Positions 31,580 to 53,513 of a stretch of 64,000 nt of DNA are shown here, one piece after another. The DNA is taken from positions 1,717,001 through 1,781,000 of the forward strand of contig OX031063.1 of the NCBI GenBank assembly GCA_943736015.1, given 5' to 3'. How positions within the stretch are numbered: the stretch's first letter is position 1; every line of letters begins with the position of its first letter. The notes under the pieces were generated by a model. It had not been told where the DNA came from and made no database searches. It was given only the letters and a program-made list of their open reading frames with translations. The translations under genes and the position numbers were made by a program. The stretch is from Tridacna crocea. Lineage: Eukaryota > Mollusca > Bivalvia > Cardiida > Cardiidae.

Positions 31580-31637
31580 ATGCATCTTCGACTTCTGTAC
31601 TTCGTAACTTGTGTTTTATCACAATGCTTTTCTTCAG
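31580..31637 (+). CDS. Receptor gene exon 1: start codon and signal peptide
   Basis: ATG at 31580 has A at -3. It encodes MHLRLLYFVTCVLSQCFSS, a short basic start followed by a hydrophobic core, as in secretory leaders. The exon ends with one extra base (phase 1) before the strong donor GTAAGT at 31638. Because the next exon starts with CA, the split codon is GCA (Ala), near the likely cleavage site. Confidence 0.78.
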
Positions 31638-34600
31638 GTAAGTTAAGTGTGCATTTATTTTGTTCTAGTGCAACAACAATTTAAATCATAACCAAATAAT
31701 TCGTGTTCAAACGACCTTAGGTTAGGAAAAACAATGGGAAAAGGAGAAAATGTTAATCAACAACTTTAGATCATTTCGGCTAAATGTCTCTCTTTGAACA
31801 TCGTTGACTTAAGATGAGACTGATAATACAATCTACATGTATACAGGGGCGAATCCAGGATTTCTTCGGGGGGAGGGGGTCAACTCGGTCAATCTCAGAT
31901 ATGCAGACACGGACCCAAAGCACAAATCAGTTGCCAATGAGTTGGAAGTACATTAAAAAAAAAAAAAATCTGGAAATTTAGGGGGGTTCGTCCGAACCCC
32001 CCGAACCCCCCTGGATCCGCCAGTGGTATAAACGCTTCAAACGCATTTCGCAACCATGTAGTTGCCTTTGCAGCCAGTGTAGCTGACGATCAGACAACAC
32101 GAAACCAGGGCCCGTATTCACCAACCATTCTTGAGAATATTCTTAGTCTTATTCTCCAAGGTTTTCTACATTTGTATGTAACACAACTTCTGATTGGCCA
32201 AACCATTTTGTTTAGCCAATCAGAAGTTGTGTTACTTACAAATGTAGAAAATTCTGGAGAATAAGACAAAGAACGTTCTTAAGACTGGTTGGTGAATACG
32301 GGCCCTGATGTCTGGCATTTGATCTACACTGGCCGCTATAAGCAACACAAACATTATAGTTATTTAGGTCCTTAATGCTAGGTTCTCTATGTCGATCAGC
32401 ACCCGATTGTATAAAAGTTGGTTAAATTTAACCTCTAGGTTAAAAGTTTGATCAGGAGAGATTTTAATTTAAGATATTGGTTAGCGATTGTATAAAGGTC
32501 TGGTTAACTTTAACCAGACTCAAATTCCGGTTAAATTTAACCCACTTCTACTAATACGGTTACCCATTTACCTTAAAATAAACATGGCTGCCCCTGTTAC
32601 TCTGGGAGTTAGACAACTGAGACAAATTCGACGATTACGTGTGTAAAGTTACTAATTTGACGACAAAGTCAAAAAGAAACTTTGACCACGATGCAGATCT
32701 GGGTTTGTAACGGCAGCATTAGACAAAAGATTGTATATGTATGGTTTCTGTATAGACAGACTAGAAAACCATTTAGGGAATCGACTTCGACACGGGACGA
32801 ATCTTAGCTTGTCATTGACATCAAGGTCATAATATTGTTCTAAGGCTTCTTGTGGTTAATTTTGGGGATACTTTTGGGGTAGATATCCGTACTGTGTTCA
32901 GACCCATTGCAATAGTTAGACAAAAGACATTGTTTACTTTGAATGACGTTGATACCGACGATCGGAGACCAACGACGGACCACACGACAGGAGTATAACG
33001 AGATCGGTAGTCTTTTTCTGCTGTTTTGGGATGCGTGGATTGGACCCACAGCAGAATTTAATGTCTATCTGAAGATCCATAGGCCTTCAATAAAGATACT
33101 AGTGTGCTGGAAACCTATAATTTCGCAACTTTCCTTGGTGATGAAACAGTTTTTATAGTAATCTCCCCTGTTGGAACTGTAATGTCTGACAGTGCCTTAC
33201 AAATAAGAGGAAATAGTGGTTTTATTGATTTTCCCACAAATTAAAGTTCTAATAACTTTTAACACTTTCTTTAAAACAAAAATTCATATCTAACCCATGC
33301 ATCAGGGAATGTATGCTTTATTTAGTTATCATATATCTACACCTTTTGATGATGGTGAATAGAAAGGCTTAAGGAATAAGGCGATAGCTAACAGAGGAGG
33401 ATTTCGGGGTTCAAAACCGACGTGATTTTTTTTTTTTTGTCAACTAGATTTTATCCACTCTCTTAACTTTTTTTATAATATTGATATGGTCAGAAATTTA
33501 ATTCATATCAATAACTTGGGCCTTTGACTTCAATAAATTCGTGCAGTGACTTCAGAAATGAGTCGTAAGACAAAAAATGGTTCCAGCTGTTTTCCCATAA
33601 TTGTGTATGGCTGCATGTCTAAAGCATAATCTGTCAAGTTCTGGCATGTCAATCGGTAGTATACAAGACTTGAGAACAGATTTCACTGGTTTGATCCGCA
33701 GCTCTGCAAATTTCCGAGGTTTGATAATAGTCATTGTGACAGCATTCATTCCTCTCTCTCTGCTGATCATTGTTTTGATGTTGATTATGTAGGAAAGCAG
33801 CCAGTAGCTCCGAAAGAATATTATGGGGAGTACTGGAAACAAAAATTACAGGAAAGCATGGAATGTTGCACTGACTGCGGTGATATAACTGAAAGAAATA
33901 ATACTTATGGTGTAAAACATCATACAACCATACATCTAGAACATAATATGCATATTCATTTCATAACCTCTTGTCTTTGTTCCACAAACAAATCAAACTA
34001 TACTTATCAGCTATTTCTTGTTTTAGATTTACCAGCCCCACTTCACCTTACGTTTATGAGATGTTCTTAAAGAAGAGGAAACTGTGCTTTTTTCAGCATC
34101 ATCAAAAATATGATAGATTGATATGCAATTAACTTTCTCATTTTTTGGAGCTATCGGCTTCAGGGGTTAGTGATGAACATACTAGCCTGAATGTAGAACA
34201 ACAACAAAACAGTGTTATTACTTTAAGTTACTTATTTCTGTAACATGCCGTGGCTAATGTTATATTTCCATCTAATAGTCGTAATAAACTGAATTAAATA
34301 CCCAATTAAAAAGAATGTTCTAAAAACACATTGTTTTAATTCCCAGAATGCAAAAAAAGCTTCTACATCTAACACATGATTAAATGGTTTCAAGAAGTTG
34401 GCCATCATGGCCCTCGATCGCTCACAGGTCATAGACTGTAATCATGAAAGTAGCATGGATAATTGAAAACTAGTTCCCTCTCAAAACGGTAATATAAATA
34501 AATCTTTGACTTTTGAAGTTTATTTTTACGTATAATGTCTACAATAAAGCGTTTGAGATGACCCCTCCAACCTCTACTTAATACATTATACGGCAATAAT

Positions 34601-37600
34601 GACCGAAATGTCTAACTAAGTCCATTGGTGGCTATGATATGTTTAACTATGATAAGATGCACAAGACCATGAATTCAAGTTGTGGAAATCAACAAGAAAA
34701 AAATACTTACTTCGACACTTGATGTAGGCGCGTCCGTCATTTTGGTTGATAACCTACGAACACGTGACAACTTCAATACATGTATACCGATGACGTGTTT
34801 GATCGTGTGATAATTACAGAGAAACCCGCTCTATTTTAAAACGGAATTGGCTATGACTCCGGGATAAAAAGTGTTTTTCCACCCCTAAATACATGATTTC
34901 TTACGTTCCGTAATTATGATTAGTCTTGTGTAATAATGTCCTCGAAAAGGAAAAATATTAATATGCAAGAGGGTTTTTTTTTTTTTTTTTTTGGTCAAAA
35001 TATGACCATGTCCCTCTGGGCCCCCTTTTTACAGATCATAAATCTGGCTTTCTATGTAAATTGTACTTTGAAACAGCCAAAAAATGAGTTAGTCCTAATT
35101 AAGTGAAAAACGACTAGTGCATGACGTAAGAATAGTATCACTACTGACGTCAATGTTTGCTAGCATAGATCATTCGTAGGTTTATATATCCCCGTCCGAC
35201 CTAATTTCGATCAGCTAACCAGAATCTGCCTTTGTACTAATGTAAATGAATAACTGTAACGTTTCAAGCCATAAAACCAGGTACAATAACCTTTTTCTAA
35301 CCCAAATCAAATACTGACAAAACTTACCAAATTCTTAGCAGTGTATGGTGTAAACATCGACAAGCATCCATTTTGTAAACATGTTCAGGTCGCAACCTTG
35401 ATTCGATCAACATGAGGCTGGTGTCATAAAACTATACTGCACAGTAAAAAGTTAAGTCACATCTTCATGAAATTGTGTAAACTGTATTAATGAACTGTAA
35501 AATTAATTAAATGTTGGTTTTTAAGGAAATTTTAACAGTTTTCAACTTATTTAGATCTATTTCAATTTATTTTCTATGTTTATTCTTCAAGTGGTGTTAA
35601 AGAAACACAGTTGGGGCAGAGGAAGCTTTCCCCACACCTCAAGACCCTTACAGGAGAACATAACTGAAGATGGACCCATCCATTACATTTATCACAACAA
35701 CCCCACTTGACAATTATAACATATGGTAGTTTGGTTGTATCAGGTGAAAATTTTATTACAGATGATGCATTTTTCATTTTCAGCGATGTCTTCCTGTGAA
35801 CTGTCACTGTCTTCTGTAAATGTAAGACATTTTTTCCCTTTCTTGATTGGCAAACAAGAAGTGCTTTATATTTTCTTTTTCCTTTCCTTGATGTAGCTTT
35901 CCTTGTTTTTTGTTTATCGTTGTGTTCCTTGATCTTTTCTATAGTGTCATCTTCAGTTATTGATTTCCCACCGATTACTTTTCTTAAAGTGTTCCTAACT
36001 TTCTTTGCTGTATCAACATTTGGAAGAATGTTTCCACCTTTTTTTTGTAAAAACTTTTTCAGCTGCCTGGGATTGAATGGTATCATTTACAGAGGTTAAA
36101 GGAGCATTGCTCTCTGTAGTGAACGACATAGAAGGGGCAATTGATGAATCAAATATGACTTCAGAATTGAATGGATATAGGCCACATTTCCGAAATGCTG
36201 TTGTGATGTTTGAGACATTAAGGGTTGAAGTGTATACCCTACATGCTAGACGACATACATCATACCTGGTAATCATGCGTCCACCAGACATGCGCATATA
36301 TTTTTGGCAAGCTGAATTCCAAGCAACTTTAAACGGCCCAAAACAACTAATGTCGAGGGGTTGCAGTACATGTGGACAATGAGGGGGCAGTACAAAAAGG
36401 ATTATCTTTTCTGACTTGGTCCATTCAATTAAACCAAGGGAACAGTGGGACTTGTGGCCATCATAAAGCACCAACACATGTGCATTGTCACTTGAGGGCA
36501 AGTATATGAGCAAGTGATCTTTCATATACTGCTTAAATATTTCTGTATTTGACCACCCAGTACCAGAAATTGTGCCCTTGGCACCTGCAGAAGATCCTTC
36601 CATCAGCCCATCCACCATTCTTGCTCCAGCAAATATGAAAAAATGATGGCACTTGTTGTCCAATACCATTTACACAGCCAATTACTGTGGTGGTGTGGGA
36701 TTTTCCTGAAGTCACTGCCTTGTTGAACCTGCCCGCTACAACTTTCGGTGGTTTGTGGTCAAAGTTTAATCCCTTATCATCAATATTAAGTAGGCGGTGT
36801 GGCTTGTCCTTAAGGTTGTACTTTACAAGTATTTGTTTTAATTCTTTGAAATAGTTATCTACAGCTTTTCGTGTAGCACATTTAGCACGTGCTATATCCA
36901 AAGCTCTGGGCTTTTTCAACTTCAGTCGAGGCCAGCGCAGTAAAAAGTTGTGAAGCCACTTATCTGAAACTGGGTTGTGATCCCTGGAGCGCATATTCAA
37001 TTCCACTGCATATTCTGTGGCCAAATTGAGTGTCTCTTGACGGCTGTATCCATAGCCAACTTTAGCCATTGTGTCCAGGTGTCGTGCCAGTAGAGCCTCC
37101 TGCTCAAGAGAAAATAAAGGGGTAGCACCACACTTAACTGTATCAATATTTACTCTGCCATCAACTCTGTCTGCAAGTGTTGTGTAAGGAACACCATATA
37201 CAGCAGCTGCCTTTCTAATTGCCATTCCTCCTTCTTTAACTGCAGTGTAGGCCTTAGAGATGTCATCTTGGTCATAAGACTTATATGAACCTCTAACAGT
37301 CACATGTTTCAAAAAAGAAAAAGGAAAGCCTCATATATTTTGGGCAACACATTTCGTGAATTTATGATTTAATTAAATGTCCATGAAGAAATTTTGTAGT
37401 TAGCAGTATTAAGCACTGCATTGTCATGTTCCTTAACTTTTTATTTGAAGTATACTAATGACGTCATTTTTGTTGGAGCTGGGCCCTGGAAAATATACAT
37501 TCTAGCAGACGCACATATAAAGAAGTCTATTTTTTAATCATTTTTGAAGAAAATGAAATTTTATGAATGCAAATTTTTGGAAATAGTAACATGGCACCAT

Positions 37601-40600
37601 TTCATGCCATTTCTAGGTAATTAGCAATGTTTATTACCTTTCTTATCTCCATTCAAACCGGCTTTGGGTTTTTGACAATTATCGTCGTCACTGTAAACAA
37701 AGGGTGCGCGCGCAGACGGTGTCGGGGTAAACTTCAGCGAGATATTTGAAATTCGCCGAGGTGATCGAATCAAGGTTGTGATCGAAGTTAGGTTGGTTGG
37801 GGATACTAATTTACGCTTAATATGCTGAAATTAAGTAAGAAATTTGATAATCTGTACTCATTAAACTGATAATGAATTTTAAGTAATCAACCGATCGGTA
37901 GATAATTTTTATCCTTTTTTATCAATCAGGTACTTGTGCGAAAGACTGTGATACGTGTGATGCTGTGCGACTAACCGGAACACAATCAATTTTTAGTCAT
38001 CACTACTTAGATTTAGACTAAAATCCAGAACGAAGTCGGAATTTCATTTTTCAGCCAAACTCAATGTAAACAAAAAAAAAAAAAACACAATTGCCAAATA
38101 CTGCATGACAGAAAAATAACTTTCTACTGTTAGGAATCCTAATTCAGTCATTATGACAACTTTGACATAAAGCGCAGAATCTCTATCATCCCAATTTGAA
38201 CCTGTCCACTTTCAAAGCAATAGACTGTACAAGATGTTATTGATATGGTACTTGATGCTTGCTTATATGTAAATTATGTGACCTATATGCAAATCAGGCT
38301 CATATCACTGATTCCTACTCAGCAGAACGTAAAAGTTTGAATGGATTTGAAAATAATACCCCGAGGTGACTTGAAGCAAATCCCAGCTACACAAACTCTC
38401 ACTGGCCAGGGAACCCTTCTCATTCCTCCAGTCATTCATAATTTAGATCATTGTGAATGCGAAACTGATATATTAAACTGTTGTTTAACGTCTTGTATGT
38501 TAACCCTTTACCACACAATCCCTAGTTTTCACATAAGTGGAAAAGAAGCCCTTTGAAAACAATGCAGGAAAAGAAAGAAGGAAATGCTGGTTACCCGCAT
38601 TTACTCCTTTTCTCATGTTATTTTTAACCCTTTTAGAAAATGTTTTCATCAATTTAGTTTCATTTAACCTTATCGTCTCGAACAGCTTTTAATGTGGAGA
38701 ACTGTTAAATGTTTCGTTTTGTGAAGAGATAAATAGTTGACTATTGCATCCTGTGCTATTAACCCTTTACCACACAATGACAACTTTTAACGCCCCTGAG
38801 GAAGAAGCCTTTTGAAACATTGTGGAAAAATGAGAAAATGCTGGTAAACAGCATTTTCTCCTTTTTCCACGACGTTTCCTACCCTATCAAAGCAAAATTG
38901 CATCATTTGAGCCACTTTGAAATTGCCATTTGCAAATGCTTTCAATTTGGATAGTCCTAATATTTTGTTGTGTGGTAACAGGTTAATTAGCTGTATAATC
39001 CAAGTTAATCCTCAACCTGCTAAAAAAATTAAATAGAATATTGTGGCAGATGGTGAAAACCTGAATATTGTGATTTCAAAGTCATATTTTGAAAAAAGAA
39101 AGAAATATCCCATTATCGGTTAGTTAGATCCAAGATCAGACTGTACAAACTATGTTGCCTGATCATCGTTCCACACTGTCTGTCCGCTCTTCTGTCCAGA
39201 TCGACATCTTTTAAAATCATTGATGAAACTTGGTGAAACATCATTCATGTATTCCTTACGATAATTCACCGATAAAGATTCTGTTTTCATTTGATGCCGT
39301 GTTATCGGAAAAGGGGGCTTGATTTATATTTCGATTACGCACTGGTATCTCTTTAAATACTGGACAAAGTTTTCTGAAAATTCGTATTCATTTTGTTTGT
39401 TATAGGCCACAGACAATCATGTTTGTTTTATTTTTTTTCAAATTCTATGCTATGGAAATAACTAAAAGGTCAGGTGTACATGCAAAACACAATTTACCTC
39501 CTATTTATTTCTATCTAAAGATGTATTTTATCTCAACAAAATAACCTTTTTTAGATAGAAAGTTAACAAACTGAAGTTTTTCGTAATATTTCTCGTTTAG
39601 AGAAGAAATTAGTCGGGTAAAGTCAATGGATTGAACTGTATTTGATTTGAACCGAATTGGATTTAATAACCAGAATGAACCGATGGACCTGGAACGGACC
39701 CAGAAACAAATTATGACAATATCTCTTCAGTCTGGTATAAATCAACAAAGATTTACATTTACCATAGCCACTTGCTAGTTTCAAATTCGCTAGTCTGTCA
39801 GTACTTTCAGTGCTTTGATTTAATTCTAGACCTGTGTTACCGAAATACGAGCTTTGCTCGTCACGTTATTTGGCTTTAACTTGCTGTCTCTCGTTATCAA
39901 GTTCATCTTTTTTTCTTTTTCAAGTTACATTCGGACAAAATGTCAGTCAGATTGGCGAAAGAAATATATTTCATAGATTGTTACAAACCATTACATAACG
40001 CCTTACATCGTTGGAAATTACCCCTATCGAGTCATTCTCTTCAATGACGGTACAAAGGAAGTAGCGTGATAAACAACGTTACTGATAGTGACCACGTTAA
40101 ATTGATGAGGCGAAAGCCAAAATCCAAGTAATCCATTAAAAGGAATAAAATAAATCGATATACCTGTACTAACAGACAAAATGCCAGACTTGTTGAAATC
40201 ATAAGCATTAACATCCAGGAAATTCAGTGTAGCTCAATCGGTTGTATTTAATATTGAAAGGATAGGCAATTGTGCAGAAAGGCAAAAATGCAGGTTACAA
40301 GCATTTTCTTTTATTCCCACATTTTTTTATGATACCCACTTAGGATTGCTAAAACACTGGATTGTTTTTTACCATCTTTCCTTCTATCATTCTTGTAGCA
40401 CAAAGACTTGTCTCAAGAGGTAAAACTATCACTGCAAGCAGTCAGTTGGCGGATTGGTTTTTTAGCAGAGCAGTCGATGGAAATACAGATAGGGGGGCAA
40501 GTACATGTCTTTGTTGTGCTGCAACTCGTCAGCAATATGAACCTTGGTACAAACTAGATCTAGGTCAACAGTACAAGATATACAGTTTATCAGTGTTGGG

Positions 40601-43600
40601 ACGAGGTGGAGCTGGGGATAAAAATGGTGGATATGGCCGTATGTATCTTACCCTGATTGTTCAACATCCAGTGTGCACTTCTGAAATTGATCCCTTACCT
40701 AACCAGAATGAGTTTTAAACAGCTCGGGAAATTACCTATTTAAAAAAAAAAACATTGTTGGAAAGGAGGTAAATCCTGGAAGCCAACATTTTCTCCTCCC
40801 ACAATGTGTTCCATTCTCAAAAATGCAAATCCGATCATTTCAGTGACCTCTCAGATTAGAGAGTAGACAGCTTATACATACGAGCATCAAGGCATGCTCT
40901 GTCAATTTCGATTTGCCCCTTGTTTTAACTCTTTACCAAACGACAAAATCTTAGACATGTCCAAATTGAAAGCATTTGCAGACGACTATTTAATCGTGCC
41001 TTAAATGATGAAATCTGTCTTTAACAGGAACGTATTTACATTAGAATAAGTAGGGTCATAGGAAGTGGATGGTGTAGATTGAGATCATACTTCACACTAT
41101 GTGCAGTCCAAATCTAAATCACCCGCGATTTAGACATTATTACAGGTAAATTTTATAAGACAAAGATTCATTTATATTGGCGGTATTGTGTGGGAATTTG
41201 TCGTTAATAATCTATGTTGCTTTCATGATCATAGACTTCGACGGATAAGAATCGAGATGAGACTGCAGAAAGGGTAAAGTCTGATCACTTTCATAAAAAA
41301 AAAAAAAAAACACGGGCCGTCAGAGACGGGTTTTAAATGCTCCCCGAACAAGTGCTCGTCATAAAATGTATGAAATGTTCCAGCGAGTTCAGATTTGAAA
41401 TTTCATGACCTTTTGAGCACTAATGTTGGAAATATTAGCGTAAAACATTCTTTTTACATGAAGCCCCTTTTACCCGCGACTCAGCCTGTAATTGAGAAAC
41501 CTGGAAAGAGGTATCTGAGCAACGTTCCAATGAGTTCAGATTTTAAGTTTCACAAAGTTTTGAGCACTGATGTAGGAGATATAGTGAAAAAAAAAAATTT
41601 ACATGAAGCCCCTTTTTTCGTGACGGAGCCTAAAGTTGAGAAACCGGGAAAGAGGTATTTGCTGATTGTTCCAAGGAGTTCAGATATGATGTTTCATAAA
41701 ATTTGGTCCAGGAGTTGTGGAGAAATAGCTTCGGACGGACGGACGCACGGACAGATGGACGGACGGACGAGCAAACAGCGTTGCGACTATGTACTCCCCC
41801 AAAATGTTTCGGGGAGCATAATAAATGCCAAAAGACTGCTTGGTTTGTCAGAAAATCTGACTTTAGGAGCAACGTTCTCTGCTATTTTTTTCTGAAAAAA
41901 AATATTCTTAGAAGTATGGAGCGAGATCTGACTGTAGTAAATTGTGATCCCATCTTGACCTTACGATATTTTTTGTATTTCAAACATTAATGGCTAAAAA
42001 ATAAACTCATCGGTCTCTATTCATGACTACAGTTCACTTTATAAGCGCTTCCACCGCTACATGGTGCGTCCAATGCGAAGGTAGATGGGGCTCTGTCTTG
42101 ATTCTGCACCGTCCGCTTACTTGAAATTTCTCACCTGGGATCAAATTTGAATTTACCTAGTATTGTTTTTCTTTCCTTGATTTTATATATACTAGCTAAA
42201 CGGCCGAAAAGTATTATTAAAGAGCGTGCAGTCTGACCTATCGGTTGGAAAGTAGTTTTATCTAATTTTTTGAGCAGGTGAAGGGTTAATCATTCTACAT
42301 TATGATATTTGTATCTGTTAGCTATCGGTTTATGCGAGTTACTGCAGCTGTAGCATGAGCATTTTGTATCTAAATATATTCCATTTCAGAAACGCTTAAA
42401 AACATGCAGATCAAACTTGGTACCACTCGATTAAATGGACAAGAAATTACACATTATACAGGCAACGATTACACCTATGATTATACACTACCAACACCAC
42501 AGGGTGGTCGTTATTTAACTCTGACACTGCTTAAAACAAAACAGTTTTTTGTAATCTGTGAATTATCAGTTTACGCAGGTAAATTGTTAGATTATCCTTA
42601 TCCAAACTTAACTCTTTACCGAACTACACAAGGAAAATAGTTTTAAAAACATGGTGGACATTTCTCCTTTTCACTCAATGGTTTCCATTTTGTCAAAGAC
42701 CATCAGTCTACTTGTACCACATAATTTTTCATAAATTTGTCACTTGCCAATGTTTTCAGCGTTGAAGAGTTCGCAAATTTGTTCTCAAGGAAAAAGTCAA
42801 CTGTTAACCGAATAATCTTGTACTCTAACTATCTAAAATGTAGCTTTTGAAGATATTTTGGAAAAAGGATAAAATGTCCATAAACTGCATTTAAGTATTT
42901 CCCGCATGTCTTTTTTCACTTCTTCAAAGCCATTTTTTTTTCATATGAGCCACTTTTGAATTGTTGCTCGCAAATACATTCAATTTAAAGAAATCTGAAA
43001 TGTATTTGCAGACGATAAATAACAAGTGGCAAAAATCAAGGTATTTGTCCTTTAGAAGGTACAAATCATTGTTGGAAAAGAAGGAAATAATGCTTACAAG
43101 CATTTTCACAGAAGCCTTCTCCTGCAGTGTTGGTAAAGCCATGACCCTCGGGGTCCTGAAAATATGCGATTGTTTGCTCAGTCCTAAGCATTTTAAGCAT
43201 CAACCTGTTACCAAGCAACCCGAGTTTTGACAGACTTAAGAATGCAACTTTTGGAAACACTGGAAAAAAAGCAAATACTGGAAGTTATTTTTTTCTTGTA
43301 ACCGAGGAAGGTTTAATATATAAGGATTTCAAACCTGCCTAGCTGTAGAAATAGTTTTTACCATGATTCTGTTTGGTGTATTTCTCTCCGTAAGGAACGT
43401 GGTTTGTAATAAGTGTCTGGATTGGTGACAGACCGATTCAATACTTTTTGTCTTTAAAGACTTTTCAATAACATATCATTTCATGCTAGAAACATTTAAT
43501 TCAACATGAGAAAATGCTTCACATAACAGAGAAGTCTAAAATGTCTTTATTTTCCAAAGATTCAATATCATCAAAGGTGAGTTTTATAGGCAGAGTAGAT

Positions 43601-46600
43601 CAAGATCAAACCGCCGGATGTATATTCAACTGCACAGAACCTGCAAACTTATACAGATCAAAATGGTTTGTTGTGTTGTAAATTATCAAGACAACAATAC
43701 GTCCGACACTGCAATGATTTGATTTCTTTTCCTAAGTGAGAATGTCCGCATTATTTACATTTGACTCAACATACAAAAGATGAATGAAAAATAATGATAA
43801 AAAAGATCTAAATTAAAATGTTTGTTTTTACCTTTCTTAATCTTTTACCACACTATCTGGAATTTCGACAACCCTAAGAGAAAAAGCTTTATAAATATAT
43901 CGAAGGCAAATGGAAAAAAGCTGGCTATCAGCATGCAGTGTTTTATATCCTTTCATGGATAAAAACCGTTTTCGAAACAAATCCGTGCCCTTGTGTGCGC
44001 GCGCGCAACCCCCCCCCCCACATACACACACAAAGTACTTTTATTTTGTTACATATGACTATTGATCATTTTTTTAAACACATTCAAAAAGAGGAAAAAA
44101 TGAAAGGGAAGAGAGAGAGAGAGAGAGAGGAATGTATCACGTGGGGCATTCTGAAATCTTTTGTTGTAAGTATGTAGAGGATTTCTATTTTTAATTCAGT
44201 AAATTTACTTATGCATTTGTTACTTCAATTGCATCTTTTATCCTGCTTATATGTGCCACACAGAACTTTGATTAATTATTTTCCCTCTTCTAGTATTCAC
44301 CTGCAATAGTTTGATTTCATATTTTCTCCTCTTATAGCTTTCCTCAACACTATTTTGATTACTTAATCCTTTTTTTTTTCACCCCTTATAGTAATTGTGC
44401 CCCCACCATATCTTTATTTTGCTGATTTCCCATAGTGTATGATTTGTCTTTAACAGATTGTATTGATGGAAGGTACGGCTCAGACTGTCAGGAAATATGC
44501 GGTAAATGTGAAAACAATGATACTTGTAACAAGGGGGATGGAACATGTTTGAGGTGTAGGACAGGATATAAACCCCCTTTATGTCAAGGTAATGTTTTGT
44601 TCTTAACCCTTTAATAGGCGACAATATTTTTGTCTACATAGCTGAATTGAAAGATGACTAATGAAATGCATTTCAAATGATTGGCCGAGTATTTGAAATG
44701 AAAAGAAAAAAAGCATTGTGAGAGACGGAGAAATTGCTGGTGACCAGCATTTTCTCCTTTTCCTAGATTTCTTTTTTCAACTAAGAGTCTTGAAAACTCG
44801 CCATCATGTTGTAGAAGTTTAACTGATGTAGCCAATTATTTTATTTTGACCACATTAAACAAGTAAAATGAAATGCAATGATAGTGAGCGATTTTTTTAT
44901 TAAGTTTAAACAAATTTCACCATTTTTTTTATCCACAACATGCACAGATTAACTTAAACCAGATCTATACATTGAAACATGATCAACAACATATACTACA
45001 GATGAGTTTTGTTTTTGAAGCGGGAGTACTTGTTCTTTCCATAATTGATAAGCGACATACTTATTTTAACCAGTCTTCAAGGATAGTCTAAAAAGTTGTT
45101 CCTACAATTGTCGCGGATTAAATATGACATTTTTGTTCTTTTTTTCCGACTATGATTAGAAATAACACTTTAATATCTCGGAATTATTTCTCGTGTAGTT
45201 CTGTCGATGGCGGCGTTTTTTTCCATGGGTTTCTTTAACGACTTATATGACAAATTTTTTAGCGGGTTTTTTTTTTTAGACGTTGCACATAAAAAATGTA
45301 TCATGTCTATAGGAGATGAGGGTCCACGTTCTCGTTTCTGGGAAATAAAGTGAAAAAAAAATCTTATATTGGATTTATCAAAACATCTTTCTTAAATAAT
45401 CAGTTAAACAATAAAATAAAAGGAAAAATGCAAATATACATCATTTTAATGAAAATTCATTAACTGGTTTTAGAATGGTAAATGTACAAATGATAAGTTA
45501 TGAAGGGAGATAATTTATGCGAAATCTTAAAGATATAATACTTTCTTACAGACAGATTTTTCTAAAAATTTCCGTAATATTCATAATTCTAAACAATAAA
45601 AAAATGGCACCAATCCATGCTTATACCATCAGAAAGCAAGGCCGAAGGTCACTGTGGAAGTTATTGTTTCAAGATAATAGCTCAGCAGATATAGTGGGAA
45701 AAGGAGAAATTGCGAATAAAAGTGTTTCTCATTTTCCTGCCAAAAGACTTCCATAACTTTTAATTTTCTGCATTTGTGTCTTTGTTTGGTGTGTAACGCC
45801 GTGTCAGCAATATTTTGATTATTTCACGGTGACAGACTTTTTTTCTCTTGACAAATACTACCCAACGACATTGTTACTTGTTTCAGTGCACCAATAGTGT
45901 TACCATTAGATGCAAAGAAATACATAGATGCATTTTTTAATCAATATCCACCACATAAATACATGCACAGTAGGATACGAACATTTGTCATAATTATACG
46001 TAGTCAACATGACAGTGCGTAGATCTATCGCCAAAACTAATTTATTTGTAGTCTTCCTTTTTCATCCCTTCTGCTTTCCTACAAGTCCATCGTTGAAACA
46101 AAGATCAGTGTGGAGAGAAGAATGACTTCTGTCGCGATGAATAGATCTATCATCAATCCTGGGACAGAAATTTGCTGAGTTATCGGATAGATATCCAACT
46201 TTGGTGAAAAAAACACGAACTTTTAGATCTATCAACAAGTTTCTAACGTTATAACATTTGAATAAATACATCTGAGCCATATAGCAGTAAAAGAAGGTTT
46301 AATGCATTGTATGATGCATGAAACCAAGCAAGTAAGCAAATCATTATAGATCCATACAGATCTAGAGTCTAATCCAATTTGTACAATAAATCACGAGCCA
46401 TACATGTACATTTACACTGGTCCTTTGGCATGCAGAAAATTGATCAGTAGATTTAGAGTTTTGATTCATGTTAGCTTCCGCGAACTGCACAGGTACATAT
46501 GTCATGGATGATAAATCCGACTTTCTCTATACATAAAGGTTTGAAACAGTTGAAAAACTGCTTGCCGAGCTGCGATAGCGCAGTAAGTAGCGTATGAAAC

Positions 46601-49600
46601 TCAAGAACAGGGGATCGCTTGTTCGATTCCCGACGCGGCTAATTTCTTTCCGACGATTGATGATTGTCAATGAGAAAGGATTCATTCCCCTCTCAACGCT
46701 GATCATTGTTTCGACAAGTTATGTGGGAAAACAGACAATGGCTTGGACGGAAAATTGTGCAGAGCACTGGTAAACTTGAGAAATTCCAGAAAAGCATGGA
46801 TAGGTGCATTGGCCGCAGTGATGAACTAATTTTGAAATAATGTTGAAAACGGCGCTTTTTAAACACCACAGAATTAATCAACCATCATTAAAACAAGTTT
46901 ACTCATAATATCTTCTACACAATAGAAAAGTATGGCATTCCCCCGTAACTCTCTGTCGCTCGTTATTAGTCTCTCGTCTTCTGAGTCTTAGAAGTTATCT
47001 CCAGACTAAGACATTTTCTGATATCTAGGCCATACCTTAATTTTTTTTGTTCTAACATTGGCTTGTTATTATAATTTATGGAAAACTGAACCAATTCAAG
47101 AAGGGCTATTTTTTCTTTTTTTTTTTGTTACCAAAGGATGCCCCCTTTTTAGCTTATCTGAGCACGAAGTGCTCATGGTGAGCTTTTGTGATCGCCCAAT
47201 GTCCGTCGTGCGTCGTCCGTCGTGCGTCGTCCGTCATCCACTATGTCTTTAAACATCTTGTCCTCCTAAACCACTGGGCCAATCTTGATAAAACTAGACA
47301 GGAATGTTCCTTGGGTGCAGCTCTACCAAAGTTGTTCACGATATTGAATTCAAGCCATGATTCTGGTTGCCACCAAAAGGAAAAAAATAGCAAAATCTTT
47401 GAAAATCTTCTTCTCTGCAACTAGAAGGCGTAGAGCTTTGATATTTAGTATGTAGCATCTCTAAGTAGACCTCTGCGAAGATGGTTCATATGATGTCCCT
47501 GGGGTCTAAACTGGCCCAGCCCCGGGGGTCACAAGTTTGAGTCATATGAACAAGGAAAGAAAACTTTAAAATTCTTGTATTCTAAAACTAAGTGGTGCAG
47601 AGCTTGGGTATTTGGTGTGTAGCATCTCTTAGTGGACCTCTACCAAGATTGTTCATATGATGTCTTTGGGGTCAAAACTGGCCCCGCCCCGGTGGTCACA
47701 ATTTTGAAACATAGAAATAAAGAAGGAAAACTTTAGAATTCTTCTTGTCTGAAACTAGGTGGTGCAGAGATTTGATATTTGGTTTGTAGCATCTCTTAGT
47801 GCACCTCTACCAAGGTTGTTCATATGATGCCCCTTGGGTCAAAACTAGTCCTGCCACGGGGGTCACAAGTTTGAAACATAGGAACAAAGAAGGAAAACTT
47901 TAAATTTCTTATTCTCTGAAACTAGAAAGCGTAGAACTTTGATATTTGGTATGTAGCATCTCTTAGTAGAATTCTACAAAGTATCTTCATACTATGCTCC
48001 TGGTGTCAAAACTTGCCCTGTCCCAGGGGTCACAAGTTCAAAACATGGGAACAAAGAAGGAAAACTTTAAAATTCTACTTCTCTGAAAGTAGAAGGCGTA
48101 GAGCTTTGATATTTTGTAAGTAGCATCTCCTAGTGGACCTCGACCACGTTTTTATTAGGATGCCCCTGGGGTCAAAACTGGCTCTGCCCAGCGGTCACAA
48201 GTTTGATTTTACAGCTTGGTACTCAGGTGAGCGATATAGGACCATGATGGTCCTCTTGTTTTACGTAATGACAAAGCAGGCGTTGGTTTTATATATGTAC
48301 GAGGGAACCTGATAGAATAAATTTTCATTGACTCCTGACACACACATAAAAAATCTTAAAGAGTCACATAGTGAGAAACTTAATCCAATTAGATAGCAAA
48401 ATTTTTGTCAAGGAAAATACTTAGTCTTAAATGTATTTGGAAACGCATCTAAAAATGTATTCACCGGTACAAAAGCAAAGTCTCCGTTCCTTCCAAACAT
48501 TATTGAAAATTGAGTAAATGCTGGAAATCAACGTTTTTTCATATTCTAACAATTATATATATCAGGCATAGATTTGATTTCCTTGCAACATATTTAAATC
48601 TGTCGCCTGCAGATGTTGTTTTAGATGTATGGACAAGTTACATACATGATGAAAGCTAGGAAATACATGAGCAGGTTGCATTCTAGATGAATTCAATGGG
48701 GCCATATATCCCCTTGTCAGAAAAAAGTATGCGCCAGGATAAGACATCTGTTCAAATAATTTTTATTTCAATCCAGTTTTAACATCATATAGTCCATTTT
48801 AATGAACATTATTCTGAACTTCTGGACTTAAAATGTCAAAGTTATTGGTGAAAATTCTTCACCATTGGTTATTTGATAAGATCCAGCCACATTAGTGATT
48901 GATGGACTGCTTTACATTTTATCTATTACAAATGAATAAAATGCTTTAGGCATTAAAGAAACTTTTATTTTTCCTTTCCTTCCAGTGATCAAGAGCTTTT
49001 CAGATACCCAAATTTCTAGCCTTAGAAATATTTTCTAAGAAGCCTTTCTCACAGTCAATTGTGTGAATGGGGCTGTAATAGCTAATGTTGAAAGATTTGG
49101 CAGATTAGGGACGTCATCCGAATAGGATTTATCTTTGTGATCCCAATGGACAAATAACTTATCTATGGATCTTCACATTTGATTACAAGTGGTTTATTTT
49201 TTTCGGTATCAGGACATTTGCCCCCCCTGGACATCTGTCCCCCGGACTTGTGCTCCGGACTTTTGCCCTTTTAGGACACCTGCCTCCTGGATATCTGCCC
49301 TCGGGCATTTTCCCCCGTAGGACATCTGCCCCCTTAGAACATCTGCCGCCTGGACATCTGCCACCCGGACATTCGGCCCTGTAGGACATCTGCCCCTTTC
49401 GGACATTTGCCCACTGGACATTTGCCCCCTGGGCATCTGCTTCCCCGGACATTCGCCCCCTTAGGATATCCCCAGGACATTTGCCCTGATAGGACATCTA
49501 CCCCCGGCTATTTGCCCCCGTGGGACAACTGCCTCCTGGGAAACGATAAGCCTCTTCTAAATGATGTTGAAGAATTAATAACATCCTGAATTTTGCTTTA

Positions 49601-52600
49601 TTTTTCTTAAAATGCAAAAAAAAAGAATTTTTATCGGTGTTTACAACAGAGGTGCCAGATGAGTAACTGACTCTATAGTTATCATACTGGAAGTTTGATA
49701 TTAAAACTGAAATCAATTAATCAGCCGAAGATTTTCAGCAAAATAGCACTTAACCATACAACAGCTGAGAAGTATTTTTCATAAAGCCGCTCAAATTTAC
49801 CATGTACAATATACATGTATATCTCAAAGTTTCTTTTTTGAGTTTGTTCCTTAAAGGAGCTCGACGTCCAAGTTGTAAACAAACTGAGGGGGCAGATATC
49901 CAGGGGGCAGATGTCCTAAGGGGGCAGATGTCCGGGGGGCAGATGTCGGGGGGCAGATGTCGGGGGCACATGCCCTAAGGGGGCAGATGTCCTAGGTTGG
50001 CAGATGTCCGCGTGGGCAACGTCCAGGTGGCAGGTGCCCTAAGGGGGAAAAAGTCTGGGGGGCACAAGTCTGGGGACAGAAGTCCGCGGGTCAAATGTCC
50101 TAGACCCATTTTTTCCCACTTGTTTCTGGTTTTCTCTTAATGAATCAAGTACTTGTATTATCTATGTGAATGTGTTCCTGTTCTTGTCGAAATGTCAAAT
50201 TAAGTTCTCAATTTTAATATCAGTCAAACCGTTAAGTTCATCTTTAGACAAAGATGAAATTGATCTCCTTCCCAGAAATCTGAAACTATAAACAAAGTTA
50301 TCATCTTTGACTAGAAATTTTTCGTTCAATTTCTGAATAAGTCCTTCAGAGTATTCACAATCCTGTGACCCTTACTTACAACATGTTTACTTTCAAACAT
50401 AATGTTACCCTTATCTAGCTTCAAATGATCCTTAGCCTGATTAGATTAGACTTACTGTAGCGAAGCTTCAATGTTTTTTGAAGTTTCACCACATTGATGA
50501 GGAGAGGAGGAGGGAGAAAAGTACGAAAGTATTTTAACAAATAAAGATAAGTAGATATTTACCCTTTTTGAAAAAACATGTTATTCAGCTGTTTCCATTT
50601 ATCACAAAACTTACATCAAAAACTATCTTAATTACTCCTACAGTTCTACTTATAACGTTTGTCCCTCTTCCAAATTCCTCTCCTATGGAATGTTGAAGTC
50701 ACGGGCCTTATATACTCTACTGGACTCTCAAATCCACCAGAATCATAAAAAGCACGTGAATTCAGTATTTCAAGAAATTGTTTAAATAATGGAAAAGGAG
50801 TAAATGTAAATAGGTTGCATAATACATATTTACATAACATAATTGTATGGAGTAATCTACTTTAATAATATATATAAGCTAAATTGGGAGAAATAATTTC
50901 ACAAGCTTAGCACATGTTTCTCCTTATATAATAAATCGCAATCTCTGCGACACTTACTGTTTTTTTGTTCAGTTCTCCAAAGGCTTTTTGCAGCTGTCAC
51001 CTAAAGCATCAACAATTGAAACTTCAAGTCTCTTTTTTGGAAGACTAATCAGAGTTCAGATATTACATGTCTATAATTATATATGTAGTAAAACAAAATC
51101 TGAATGGGCAGATCTTTTTTGGCAAGCTATTTGGCCTTTGGATCCTGGTCTGTGATGAAAACGGTAATTAAATCAAGGCAACTGTACACTGTCTCAAATA
51201 CTTTGTAAATTAAATCTATCATGCACCCATGTGTCCATAATTTTGAATCATCCTACAAAGATTGGAAACAGTCCCGTCAATGTTTTCCCGTACTCATTCG
51301 TACTCCTGTAAGTAGATACTTGAACTAATTGCTGGTGAGGTTACGAAAGCCAAATGATGGGCCATTAAATTTTCTCTTCAAAAGTACCTTCTTCATGCTG
51401 GTGATCGACTTTGTGCCGTCACTACCCAATCTCATGACTTTAAACAGGGAAACCAAGTAAAACTAAGATTGTGTTTCTAAACAATGCAGATCATACAGCT
51501 TTTTGAAGACAGTTCGAGAAAGTGTTGTCTTTTGCATATGTGTAGATCGAGAAGACATCGCATTCAATGTTCCGCCTGATCTAGGATCAGCAAACGATTT
51601 TTTGTGCTATATTTTTTGTAATATTCTGGTAATAACTCCTTTGAAATTACAATGTCTAGGACTTTTCTTATAACTATTTTAGTGATTCAAGACTTAAAGG
51701 TAGGTATTTAGATTTTTCACATTGCACCAAATTAAAAAAGATATATATCACTGATTTTTTTCATGAAAAAAAAATCAAATCACCAATACTTGAGAGTCAT
51801 AAGATTACACACACAAAATATTTTGATGGTGTTCCCTGAAAAGGCTACATAGACTCTTAAGGTATTTCACAAGAAACAAAAAAAAGCATTGTGGGAATGT
51901 CATTTGACTGGTACCTGACTAATGACGTTTAAATTCCATAACATACGAAACAAGTAATTCATTTCCATTATGTCTTCTTCGGACACTATGTTTTAAGCTG
52001 TGCCTGTGTATTTATGATATGTAGATGAGCGAGTTGCTCATGTAAAATAGACTGTGTGTCCTGTTGCTGTCAACTTAAATCTCTAATTTGTCTTGCTGTC
52101 GGATGGTTTTCGACAACTGGGGATTTATGAATGAAAATTAAAAGGCTTTGGGAGTATAAAGATCGTTCTTGTAGGGGTATTTTTGCAAAATGTTCGTCCC
52201 AAAATCTGAAGGGCCACCTTTGAGAACAATCGGGTATTGTTTTTAATATATATATCTTACGACCTGCCGTATATTGTGAGTCAAAGATAACACTGTACGT
52301 CATATGCTATCTGGCACTGAACTACGTTTTCTACAGAATTACGTAATATGTCCTCAATACACTTTATATTACTCTTCTATCGCAGAGAATGCGGAAATCA
52401 AGGCTCAGAGTCCTGAAGTTAAGAGCTATCAACTTGCAACAGCCATCGTCGGAACAGTCGCCGGTGTTGTAATCATCGGAAACGTGGTGGCTGCAATCTG
52501 TTACATGACTCGTCACAGGTACACACACTGCTAAATGAAATCCTGAAATCCCTTTGCAATTATATAAGAAATTATCATGGAAAATTAGGGTAATGTTTCC

Positions 52601-53145
52601 TAGTGCTTGGGTATTTTCCACGATTTGGATTGGAAATAACAACAGTATGGTCGTCATTTTTTGAATCTGAATACGTAAGTATGTCATTCGTATTATAGGC
52701 TGGAGGCCTGTGTGTATATATTAATAGACATTATCATGGTCATTGTCATTGCGTGCAAGAGTCAATTAAATAGGTAGCTTTTAAGTTACGGAAGTGCCAG
52801 CGAATTAAGAATATTAATTAAAAGTGGGCCCTTGTATCACGTGTCCGGAATATGAAATGTTTCTTTGTTGTCTTGTGGTAACCATAGTCTTGAAAAAGCA
52901 CCCAGGTTATATTCTAATTATTCTTGCAAAACAGGGGTCGCTTGCTTAGTGAGGTACTAAAACAGTATTTATTGCATCATTTGTTCTTCAGGAGAAAGCA
53001 CAGAGAGAGACCGATACAAAGTCAACCCGTAATCAGCAATCTGTACGAGATGGCTAATAGAGGCGCCTTTGGAACTGAACATCAATACGGACAAACAGCA
53101 CCAGCTTATGAAGTACCGGAAGAGCCTTATGAAATTCCAAAATAG
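31580..53145 (+). CDS. Predicted six-exon gene: secreted-leader, fucolectin (FTP)-EGF transmembrane receptor
   Basis: Exons are 31580-31637, 40399-40638, 42390-42578, 44457-44588, 52386-52518 and 52992-53145. Together they give 906 bases, 301 codons plus stop. Phases agree at all five junctions and every intron is GT..AG. The protein has a signal peptide (1-19), an F5/8C-like fucolectin domain (about 20-162), an eight-cysteine EGF-like module (about 163-206), a juxtamembrane linker, a transmembrane helix (about 223-247), a basic stop-transfer segment (TRHRRKHRER) and a tail with Y269, Y283, Y290 and Y297. This is the layout of a type I surface receptor: an extracellular lectin-type domain and intracellular tyrosines that could be phosphorylated. 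The YEVP and YEIP motifs resemble SH2-docking sites. Extra exons in the 8.8-kb and 7.8-kb introns cannot be excluded. Ligand and function are unknown. Confidence 0.82.
31844..32025. mobile_element. Small element with CAGGGGCGAATCCAGG ends
   Basis: The left end CAGGGGCGAATCCAGG is nearly the reverse complement of the right end CTGGATCCGCCAGTG, and G-rich and C-rich tracts follow inside each end. There is no coding capacity; it is a MITE-like sequence in intron 1. Confidence 0.65.
32106..32307. mobile_element. Near-perfect palindromic MITE with CAGGGCCCGTATTCACC ends
   Basis: The 202-bp sequence reads almost the same on both strands. CAGGGCCCGTATTCACCAAC matches the reverse complement of the right end, and the inner arms CAATCAGAAGTTGTGTTAC and GTAACACAACTTCTGATTGG flank a loop of about 20 bases. 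No gene lies inside. It is a fold-back MITE in intron 1 of the receptor gene. Confidence 0.8.
32370..32590. repeat. Cluster of short palindromes around GGTTAAATTTAACC
   Basis: GATTGTATAAA occurs twice, and GGTTAAATTTAACC and CTGGTTAACTTTAACCAG are near-palindromes. It is probably a degenerate fold-back element. Confidence 0.4.
33741..33945 (+). repeat. SINE body fragment (related to 46564-46885)
   Basis: TCATTCCTCTCTCTCTGCTG, GAAAGCATGGAATG and the ending GTAAAACATCATACAACCAT are homologous, in order, to segments of 46680-46880. No tRNA-like head sits directly before it; a weak box-B-like GGTTCAAAACC is at about 33409. Confidence 0.5.
33946..35184. other. Intron 1 sequence, nothing recognised
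   Basis: This is AT-rich and non-coding as far as I can see, with a long poly-T run (about 34974-34992) and no repeat I can match inside the window. Confidence 0.45.
35185..37813 (-). mobile_element. pogo-like DNA transposon
   Basis: A transposase (35580-37312, minus strand) is flanked by imperfect inverted sequences. Left ATATCCCCGTCCGACCTAAT (from about 35187) matches the reverse complement of the right end GTATCCCCAACCAACCTAAC (to about 37812). CAACCTTGATTCGATCA (35394-35410) is repeated in inverse orientation at 37761-37777. TA dinucleotides next to both ends fit the TA target of Tc1/mariner-type elements. The exact ends are uncertain by a few bases. Confidence 0.7.
35580..37312 (-). pseudogene. 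pogo-like transposase with C-terminal zinc-finger region, two frameshifts
   Basis: The N-terminal frame (37312-36533) has a psq-type helix-turn-helix (AIRKAAAVYGVPYTTLADRV), a CENP-B-type region (DKWLHNFLLRW) and the first catalytic Asp in NIDDKGLNFDHKP. The middle frame (36669-36013) has LVLYDGHKSHCSLGLIEW and LPPHCPHVLQPLDISCFGPF, the second and third acidic residues of a DDD pogo core. The last frame (36086-35580) is Lys-rich, then has CCDKCNGWVHLQLC and ESFLCPNC, a PHD-like cysteine pattern. The frame changes fall at or near an A6 run (36638-36643) and a T8 run (36039-36046). Apart from these no stops interrupt it. Confidence 0.85.
37814..38049. other. Short non-coding spacer in intron 1
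   Basis: Nothing is recognised between the pogo element and block B. Confidence 0.4.
38500..38736. repeat. Fold-back family copy (in block B)
   Basis: It starts TTAACCCTTTACCACAC and has the centre GGAAATGCTGGTTACCCGCA followed by a CTCCTTTTCTC arm. The right end is degenerate. Confidence 0.65.
38758..38987. repeat. Fold-back family copy, well preserved
   Basis: The ends are TTAACCCTTTACCACAC and GTGTGGTAACAGGTTAA. The centre is GAGAAAATGCTGGTAAACAG / CAGCATTTTCTCC, flanked by ACATTGTGGAAAAA and TTTTTCCACGACGT. This is among the best copies for defining the unit (about 230 bp). Confidence 0.75.
40250..40345. repeat. Fold-back family fragment
   Basis: AAAAATGCAGGTTACAAGCA followed by TTTTCTTTTATTCCCAC is the central palindrome in decayed form, just before exon 2. 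Confidence 0.45.
40399..40638 (+). CDS. Receptor gene exon 2: first part of the fucolectin (F5/8C-like) domain
   Basis: The acceptor is TTCTTGTAG, the donor GTATGT at 40639. Phase is 1 at both ends. Family landmarks are the opening RLVSRGKTITASSQ, the AVDGNTD loop, a cysteine cluster STCLCC, and EPWYKLDLGQQYKIYSLSV (the usual PWW-x-VDLG-x-x-Y block). The common fucolectin segment with SCSHT before PWW and the R-x-DCC segment after the strand are not seen, so classic fucose binding may be lost. A weaker alternative donor (GTGGAG near 40609) would keep the same phase and shorten the domain by ten codons. Confidence 0.8.
40740..40990. repeat. Fold-back family pieces in intron 2
   Basis: A centre-like segment (ACATTGTTGGAAAGGAGG, CATTTTCTCCTCCCACAATG) is at 40752-40807. 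A separate end-type segment with AACTCTTTACCAAACGACAA and AAATTGAAAGCATTTGCAGA is at 40925-40985. Confidence 0.5.
41336..41820. mobile_element. Small element with ATGCTCCCCGAA ends and internal direct repeats
   Basis: Left ATGCTCCCCGAACA and right TGTTTCGGGGAGCAT are inverted copies. Inside, two to three units of about 120-130 bp share TTCAGATTT, AGTTTCA/GTTTCA, TTTTGAGCAC and ACATGAAGCCCCTTTT, and a GGAC-rich tract (41737-41773) follows. A 166-codon open frame runs through it, but its protein is just the repeat translated, so I do not call a gene. It sits in intron 2. Confidence 0.65.
42390..42578 (+). CDS. Receptor gene exon 3: second part of the fucolectin domain
   Basis: It follows a CCATTTCAG acceptor and ends in GCAG/GTAAAT, phase 1 at both ends. 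It encodes LKNMQIKLGTTRLNGQ, then a Tyr/Thr-rich stretch, and closes with GGRYLTLTLLKTKQFFVICE and LSVYAG. The R-Y-L-x-L...L-x-I/V-C-E-L-x-V-Y ending is the standard C-terminal strand of F5/8C and fucolectin domains. Confidence 0.82.
42607..42800. repeat. Fold-back family fragment in intron 3
   Basis: TTAACTCTTTACCGAAC begins it and a degraded centre and right part follow, only a short distance after exon 3. Confidence 0.4.
42955..43230. repeat. Fold-back family copy in intron 3, inverted arrangement
   Basis: End-type segments (TTGTTGCTCGCAAATACATT; later TGTTACCAAGCAACCCGAGT) surround a centre with TTGTTGGAAAAGAAGG and ATGCTTACAAGCATTTTC. Confidence 0.5.
43838..43990. repeat. Fold-back family fragment in intron 3
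   Basis: CTTAATCTTTTACCACAC is the family end; the centre is reduced to AAGCTGGCTATCAGCA. Confidence 0.45.
44000..44130. repeat. Short simple repeats (GC, C, CA, GA)
   Basis: GCGCGCGCG, a run of about 13 C, CACACACAC (about 43998-44034) and (GA)n at 44112-44130. Confidence 0.7.
44457..44588 (+). CDS. Receptor gene exon 4: EGF-like module
   Basis: The acceptor is TTTAACAG, the donor GTAATG, phase 1 at both ends, so the exon is a symmetrical, shuffleable module. It encodes 44 residues with eight cysteines, beginning DCIDGRYGSDCQEICGKC and ending GTCLRCRTGYKPPLCQ. This spacing fits the MEGF/laminin-like EGF modules of multi-EGF scavenger receptors. One N-glycosylation sequon (N-D-T) lies in ENNDTC. 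Confidence 0.82.
44602..44835. repeat. Fold-back family copy in intron 4
   Basis: It starts TTAACCCTTTAATAGGCGAC only 13 bases after exon 4. The centre is GAAATTGCTGGTGACCAGCA followed by TTTTCTCCTTTTCC. A long stem this close to the 5' splice site is notable. Confidence 0.6.
45640..45760. repeat. Fold-back family fragment in intron 4
   Basis: TAGTGGGAAAAGGAGAAATT and TCTCATTTTCCTGCC are parts of the centre and flanks. Confidence 0.35.
46564..46885 (+). repeat. tRNA-derived SINE
   Basis: The head has TAGCGCAGTAAGTAGC (box A region, about 46575) and TTGTTCGATTCCCG (box B, about 46619). The body from about 46680 matches the fragment at 33741-33945, and the 3' end reads GCTTTTTAAACACC...AATTAATCAACC. 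The acceptor-like ends GCCG/CGGC pair only partly. It lies in intron 4. Confidence 0.6.
47146..48257 (+). mobile_element. Non-autonomous element with CTCACCTGAG-type end, copy 2
   Basis: It is homologous to 5044-6413: CTTTTTAGCTTATCTGAGCA at the left, repeated GTGCGTCGTCCGTC next, about five modules of about 165 bp (landmarks near 47411, 47577, 47746, 47918 and 48080), and a right end with ACTCAGGTGAGCGATATAGG and the palindrome AGGACCATGATGGTCCT. It has two modules fewer than copy 1. No coding sequence. It is located in intron 4. Confidence 0.75.
48258..49210. other. Intron 4 sequence, little structure
   Basis: Only a weak fold-back family fragment (about 48490-48545, GTAAATGCTGGAAATCAACG) is visible. 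Confidence 0.4.
49211..49540 (+). repeat. Minisatellite array, GGACATCTGCCCC unit, forward
   Basis: About twenty degenerate units of 14-20 bp (GGACATCTGCCCC with spacers such as TTA, TGTA or CCT) run head to tail. Open frames through it encode only repeated PGHLPPG- or GGQMS-like peptides and are not genes. Confidence 0.85.
49886..50107 (-). repeat. Minisatellite array, same unit, reverse orientation
   Basis: About thirteen units of GGGGGCAGATGTCC, the reverse complement of the unit at 49211-49540. The two arrays face each other across about 345 bp, so the whole 49211-50107 stretch is an inverted repeat built of tandem repeats. Confidence 0.85.
50108..52075. other. Intron 4 sequence, nothing recognised
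   Basis: I looked for further cysteine-rich or membrane exons in the right phase and found none I could defend. Confidence 0.4.
52076..52245 (+). repeat. Dispersed repeat, copy 1 (copy 2 at 54074-54230)
   Basis: GTCGGATGGTTTTCGACAAC, AAAATTAAAAGGCTTTGGGA and GTATAAAGAT match 54074-54230 in order. It lies 140 bases before exon 5. Confidence 0.6.
52386..52518 (+). CDS. Receptor gene exon 5: juxtamembrane and transmembrane helix
   Basis: The acceptor TTCTATCGCAG starts the exon in phase 1; the donor AG/GTACAC leaves phase 2. A polar linker (ENAEIKAQSPEVKSYQ) leads into an uninterrupted hydrophobic stretch with AIVGTVAGVVIIGNVVAAIC, ending YMTRHR. It is long enough for one membrane-spanning helix, with basic residues on the inner side. 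Confidence 0.8.
52992..53145 (+). CDS. Receptor gene exon 6: cytoplasmic tail and stop
   Basis: The acceptor TTGTTCTTCAG starts the exon with G, completing the phase-2 codon AGG. The tail is basic at first (RKHRERP), then has VISNLYEMANRG and ends with APAYEVPEEPYEIPK before TAG. Two Y-E-x-P motifs seven residues apart suggest phosphotyrosine docking. The reading frame also continues upstream into the intron, but that part has no support. Confidence 0.8.
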
Positions 53146-53507: not shown

Positions 53508-53513
53508 AATAAA
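53508..53513 (+). promoter_or_regulatory. Candidate polyadenylation signal of the receptor gene
   Basis: AATAAA lies 363 bases after the stop codon and is the first clear hexamer in an otherwise AT-rich 3' region. The actual cleavage site cannot be seen. Confidence 0.5.

Follow-up and report, generated by a model that had tools for sequence, protein, structure and literature searches.

What kind of receptor is encoded by the six-exon gene at positions 31580 to 53145 of a 64,000-nucleotide stretch of the Tridacna crocea genome? The stretch, called the window below, is C8:1717001-1781000 (contig OX031063.1) of a 1.05 Gb genome, and exon coordinates are given as window positions. An earlier note on this DNA had described a receptor of lectin type, with a fucolectin domain, an EGF module and a tyrosine tail. 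We hold with moderate confidence that the gene encodes a single-pass surface receptor from a multigene family, in which an outer half made of an F5/8C-fucolectin (FTP) domain and EGF-like modules is carried either on a tyrosine tail or on a receptor-type protein tyrosine phosphatase (PTP). The tail would dock adaptors, and the phosphatase-ended siblings would oppose it.

Gene structure and the tyrosine tail

Six exons were rebuilt on the plus strand. The five introns all have GT..AG borders and run in phases 1,1,1,1,2, and the exons form an open frame of 301 aa (906 nt with the stop, which ends at 53145). Exon 1 (31580..31637, phase 1) carries the start codon and the leader (MHLRLLYFVTCVLSQCFSS) and has counterparts at C8:1550531 in a neighbouring copy, copy A, and at C8:1638043 in a more distant relative, paralogue B. 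The first part of the FTP domain lies in exon 2 (40399..40638), for which 32 rows including the window were aligned, and the second part in exon 3 (42390..42578). A single 8-cysteine EGF-like module occupies exon 4 (44457..44588), the stalk and membrane helix exon 5 (52386..52518), and exon 6 (52992..53145) encodes the basic stretch, the cytoplasmic tail with four tyrosines (residues 269, 283, 290 and 297) and the stop. Two poly-A signals, AATAAA/ATTAAA, follow on the same strand at 53508 and 53550 (53508..53555). The top 19-residue hydrophobic segment (2.4) spans residues 227-245, with the basic stretch directly after it; on the same measure the leader is moderately hydrophobic (1.1). A scan of both strands of intron 4 for the cysteine pattern and a tblastn search found no second EGF exon there. 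An in-frame 5' extension of exon 6 from an alternative acceptor (52935..52991, plus strand, 19 further aa) is judged unlikely. This stretch measures 57 nt in the window, in frame, and 55 nt in paralogue B; since the extension would break the frame of paralogue B, the shorter exon with the acceptor for 52992 is favoured. The exons, the phases and the tail recur in copy A, in paralogue B and in diverged relatives, which confirms at the level of sequence that the reconstruction is real and not a product of chance, the splicing itself being predicted from the same letters. The six exons of the earlier note, with fitting phases and intact borders, are borne out by the rebuild and its open frame, and the proposed order of leader, F5/8C-FTP domain, one EGF-like module, helix, basic stretch and tyrosine tail holds.

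All 41 candidates of a helix-tail search were scored, and 19 of 20 tail loci were read, with the window and copy A included and C16:1033118 left out. The four tyrosines are kept in 19, 19, 18 and 19 of these 19 tails. Their columns belong to the eight best kept, and the four invariant columns are three tyrosines and one serine. The last tyrosine stands in a YxxP motif in 14 of the 19. In the window the +3 residues after the tyrosines are A, T, P and P, the last two sites reading YEVP and YEIP. Known tyrosine motifs include the immunoreceptor tyrosine-based activation and inhibition motifs (ITAM and ITIM) and the Yxx-hydrophobic sorting signal; given these +3 residues, all three are absent from the window tail. 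According to the consulted part of PMC2689226, phosphorylated YxxP is a consensus site for the SH2 domain of Crk, and in the worm Crk-DOCK180-Rac-ELMO acts as an engulfment module. The previous suggestion that YxxP can dock SH2 proteins is consistent with the kept tyrosines.

The alternative that survives best, still an unlikely one, is a plain adhesion or scavenger molecule, with its function in the FTP-EGF half and a tail that serves as a stub for structure or trafficking. The tail has just ~50 residues, and a genome search for the PTP domain (PF00102; 150 of 217 candidates scored, at least 138 matches) placed none of the 138 at C8:1.38-1.89 Mb, in or behind the window gene. Against a stub, however, stand the rank of the four tyrosine columns among the eight best kept of 19 tails and the +3 residues, which do not fit a Yxx-hydrophobic sorting signal.

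Constraint was assessed from non-synonymous (dN) and synonymous (dS) rates in 16 comparisons. In 10 of them, including the window against paralogue B, dN was below dS with fewer than 5% contradicting bootstraps. The tail was clearly constrained against the relatives L038 (0.38) and L041 (0.39).

Related outer halves before two inner ends by gene order

Then, what stands behind the other FTP exons of this genome? Many PTP matches share stretches of C8 and C2 with FTP and EGF exons. The PTP exons on C2, C8 and C14 (62 of the 138) were entered into a count of gene order, none being listed on C9 or C16. Of the 44 FTP exon-1 matches, 14 are followed within 150 kb on the same strand by a tail as the next element, 15 by a PTP exon and 11 by another FTP exon; 4 are followed by no element. 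Seen from the 20 tails, an FTP exon is the nearest upstream element for 14 and another tail for 2, 4 have none, and a PTP exon is nearest for 0.

Both types were followed within single loci. A phosphatase-type gene on the minus strand runs from its FTP exon at C8:955305 to PTP exons ending at about 916700. Its inner half, read at 934000-916600, shows an EGF segment and a membrane helix unlike that of the window gene, as well as open segments carrying YHFQAWPD (the WPD-loop), VVHC and SAGIGRTG. A tail gene from the other clade of the tree described below, at C8:10.860-10.875 Mb, has FTP exon 1, a partial FTP exon 2 (E-value (E) 0.015), three EGF-like segments, the helix and the tail. Receptor-type PTPs are, by gene order, close outer-half relatives of the window gene in the same genome, from which it differs by having no phosphatase match in or behind it (150 of 217 candidates scored) and another membrane helix.

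The tree of FTP exon 1 was built from 32 rows and 82 columns, excluding a third relative, paralogue C, for its in-frame stops, and L085, which did not align at the cut-off. Types had been assigned from gene order before the tree; with the labels from the gene-order count added, it has 13 tail, 13 phosphatase and 6 unlabelled rows. Group 1 (C8 0.86-1.87 Mb with C16; support 92/87) and group 2 (C8 7.97-11.44 Mb with C9 and C2; 80/83) each contain rows of both types, and the phosphatase-type FTP exon at 0.955 Mb clusters with the tail-type exons at 1.382 and 1.865 Mb (100/98). Four changes of type are needed on the tree, and its starred branches force at least two. The approximately unbiased test rejected a tree in which phosphatase-type rows form a single clade apart from the 13 tail-type rows (p-AU 4e-7 with 8 rows and 3e-90 with 13 rows). 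Because the types need at least two changes, more than one lineage has like outer halves in front of both inner ends, on a tree built from a short exon with long branches, for which the program issued a warning. It can be stated safely from gene order and tree that similar outer halves appear to precede both inner ends; our reading is that the inner ends may have been swapped repeatedly.

The earlier note knew of no named family with this layout; the same genome holds such a family, whose likely siblings include genes with a tyrosine phosphatase as their inner end. Among the papers listed by our search at title and abstract level, mainly in open literature, none describes an FTP-EGF outer half common to phosphatases and tyrosine tails. 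In the parts consulted, PMC7895826 lists fucolectin, MEGF and PTPRK each as a gene family of its own, and PMC12021676 names fucolectin-like and MEGF-like genes.

Tails with no FTP exon match upstream lie at C6:19.38-19.53 Mb and at C16:19.62 and 36.32 Mb. A weak Ig-like exon (best E 0.018) is present in four copies at C6:21.37-21.53 Mb. One copy stands ~6 kb upstream of the tail-family membrane exon at C6:21.54 Mb, and an Ig-type outer half on the family tail was considered from it and set aside with the link unproven; no tail was matched on the same strand less than 100 kb away from the other three copies.

Outer half, neighbouring copies and other elements of the window

The domain encoded by exons 2 and 3 matches Pfam F5_F8_type_C_2 (E 5e-9, 37.1 bits, cut-off 27.8) and F5_F8_type_C (E 6e-8, 33.3 bits, cut-off 28.2), and its best matches among solved structures are FBP32 (3cqo, 2.3e-16) and an eel-type lectin (1k12, 1.8e-8). 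In the consulted part of PMC5712786, the fucose contacts of the eel lectin are His52, Arg79 and Arg86, with an acid two residues after Arg79 and the vicinal pair Cys82-Cys83 as further marks. The HMMER alignment puts Ala in place of His52, R88 at Arg79, G90 at Asp81 and K94 at Arg86, the last becoming N95 if a one-residue gap is shifted; no vicinal cysteines stand at the aligned place of Cys82-Cys83. The histidine occurs in 0 of the 32 rows of the FTP exon 1 alignment, 31 of which have CxCC(A/S) at its place. A positive control from the same genome, the lectin-like exon L001 at C6:65.07 Mb, keeps CIHT and NRADCCGER. The printed motif HX24R (PMC5712786) leaves 24 residues against 26 by the numbering and misses L001 too, and the residues themselves were used instead. 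The window motif AVDGN fits the calcium motif given in the same source.

By these alignments the domain is clearly of the F5/8C-fucolectin family, and the fucose motif (His52, Arg79-X-Asp81, basic 86) is not found in it. That the protein is a fucose-binding F-type lectin of the classical kind, anchored in the membrane, is improbable: the domain family and the alignment of R88 and K94 to Arg79 and Arg86 are in its favour, but the change of histidine to alanine and of Asp81 to Gly90, the missing Cys82-Cys83, the missing histidine throughout the 32 rows and the retention of these residues by L001 elsewhere in the genome are against it. The proposal of a lectin-type receptor thus stands for the domain family and is weakened for the binding site, where histidine, acid and vicinal cysteines are gone. 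The window gene resembles F-type lectins and fucolectins such as 1k12 and 3cqo in its F5/8C sequence, whereas it lacks the fucose-contact residues and adds an EGF-like module, a helix and a tyrosine tail. Furrowed of Drosophila, which has C-type lectin and membrane parts, resembles it as a membrane-anchored F-type lectin domain. The two differ in that the EGF-like module and tyrosine tail of the window gene replace the many CCP repeats that accompany the F-type lectin domain of Furrowed in the consulted part of PMC5712786.

The EGF-like module has eight cysteines in the MEGF/Tie-type spacing C-x8-C-x3-C-x2-C-x5-C-x6-C-x2-C-x8-C. All eight aligned modules, from the window and its neighbours, keep every cysteine, two of them with one extra residue in one loop. 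Pfam scans gave no EGF match to the window module, and its predicted structure is poor (predicted local distance difference test score 62). When the family profile was compared with the PDB, the EGF-like protein 6u11 came first (3.6e-5), followed by cytochrome c (0.032, a chance match) and the Tie2 EGF repeats (0.073); the likeness to Tie2 is no more than a hint because it ranks after the chance match. The EGF assignment of the earlier note is supported by the cysteine pattern and by a single profile hit on a solved EGF protein, with no Pfam call behind it.

Engulfment receptors of the Draper/CED-1/MEGF10 type are defined by an EMI domain, an EGF array, and NPxY and ITAM motifs. Like them and SCARF, the window gene has the 8-cysteine type of EGF-like module (a single one here; the model of paralogue B has five), a single helix and cytoplasmic tyrosines. 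Nevertheless, the Pfam scan of the protein and the tail sequence place it outside this group, with an N-terminal FTP domain instead of EMI and with no NPxY, no YxxL/I and no ITAM in the tail, and we regard membership as very improbable.

A translated search covered 180 kb upstream and 20 kb downstream of the window. Copy A (C8:1550531-1578887), a near-identical second gene 198 kb upstream, has six exons, keeps every splice site and differs at 4 of 906 coding bases; the larger aligned blocks around its exons are 95.6-99.2% identical to the window. Either a recent duplication or a tandemly placed allele could account for it. Paralogue B sits between copy A and the window; its leader, FTP, helix and tail exons correspond to those of the window gene and have equal phases. 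Its model of 477 aa contains five EGF exons and leaves out EGF exon 6, which has an internal stop. Between the window and paralogue B, dN is 0.135 and dS 0.218 over 297 codons, with only one of the five EGF exons used, and dN reached or exceeded dS in 1.0% of 1000 bootstraps. Paralogue C, the next downstream, has in-frame stops in FTP exon 1 (L027:4728-4937). The explanation that we find least probable, a truncated and decaying receptor-phosphatase copy without function, draws on the close FTP kinship to the phosphatase-type genes at C8 0.86 and 0.96 Mb and on copy A, three of whose four differences are non-synonymous, but it meets a different helix in the phosphatase gene and an empty helix-tail search at C8 0.80-0.96 Mb, a tail exon at 19 read loci including the window, and dN below dS in comparisons with paralogue B and with two phosphatase-type genes (four FTP exons in all), with 0.0-4.3% of bootstraps contradicting.

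The nearest relatives of the window gene differ between FTP exon 1 and exon 2 (borderline test, p-AU 0.048), a hint of exchange between the two exons or of gene conversion. FTP exon 2 of the window (42390-42578) lies nearer to other relatives (L059, L055) than FTP exon 1 does.

The window also contains repeats and mobile elements. In intron 1, a transposon-like stretch on the minus strand (35580-37330) has HTH_psq and DDE_1 in overlapping frames and is presumably of pogo/Tigger kinship. Two retroelement-like segments are surrounded by open frames, one on the minus strand (11530-12168) with an RNase H-like RT domain and one on the plus strand (25630-27891) with reverse transcriptase and RNase H. 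Tandem arrays of a 167-base unit lie at 5263-6357 and 47393-48206, the second in intron 4. An array of 64-base period at 49223-49429 is rich in GGACATCTGCCCCC, and by eye an inverted counterpart follows ~400 bases on, at about 49890-50100.

Proposed mechanism and a paired-receptor reading

How would a receptor of this layout work? From display at the cell surface to the opposition of the two types, we infer the following course. Using loops that diverged from the fucose site, the FTP domain would bind a ligand, either surface-borne or microbial. Clustering of the receptor could then let Src-type kinases phosphorylate the tail, and the last tyrosines (YEVP, YEIP) would dock a Crk-type SH2 adaptor, which may drive Rac-dependent actin changes, for example in adhesion or engulfment. 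Phosphatase-ended siblings with the same or similar ligands would oppose this by removing the phosphate.

Several observations weigh against the docking receptor and its swapped siblings. Of the 18 tails that retain the third tyrosine, 7 have it as YxxP, and 6 of the 16 dN/dS comparisons give no clear constraint. The tail is not clearly constrained against L032 (0.79), L036 (0.81) and L029 (0.49), and against L031 its dN/dS is 2.33, with few synonymous changes. The differences of copy A that alter the protein belong here too. Both links, FTP to PTP and FTP to tail, are given by gene order alone over spans of 12-106 kb, and one of the 14 FTP-tail links (on C16) rests on the unread tail match C16:1033118 (E 1.5). 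An assigned inner end is lacking for 15 of the 44 FTP exons, and an upstream FTP exon for 6 of the 20 tails. The pattern read as swaps could also arise from gene conversion of the FTP exon. The whole-genome protein search scored 131 of 397 candidates and gave 132 matches, so that its counts are lower bounds, and exons may be missing from it as from the PTP search.

The immune cells of vertebrates are characterised by paired receptors, activating and inhibitory, whose outer halves are alike. The window family recalls them in its like outer halves, opposite inner ends and tandem clusters; related outer halves with opposing inner ends are what gene order and tree together suggest here. The difference is that here a phosphatase would itself serve as the inhibitory end, whereas in vertebrates an ITIM recruits one. 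We read the window gene as the probable non-catalytic, tyrosine-docking half of such a paired-receptor-like system. Only tentatively do we extend this to an invertebrate paired-receptor system in which a lectin-like half was shuffled by repeated swaps between a docking tail and a receptor PTP, the same ligand thereby turning the signal on or off. The F-type lectin fold, EGF modules, receptor phosphatases and paired receptors are all known already; the proposed pairing of both inner ends is new here. If true, it would be an independent case of paired receptors, with the inhibitory enzyme built in and with named loci.

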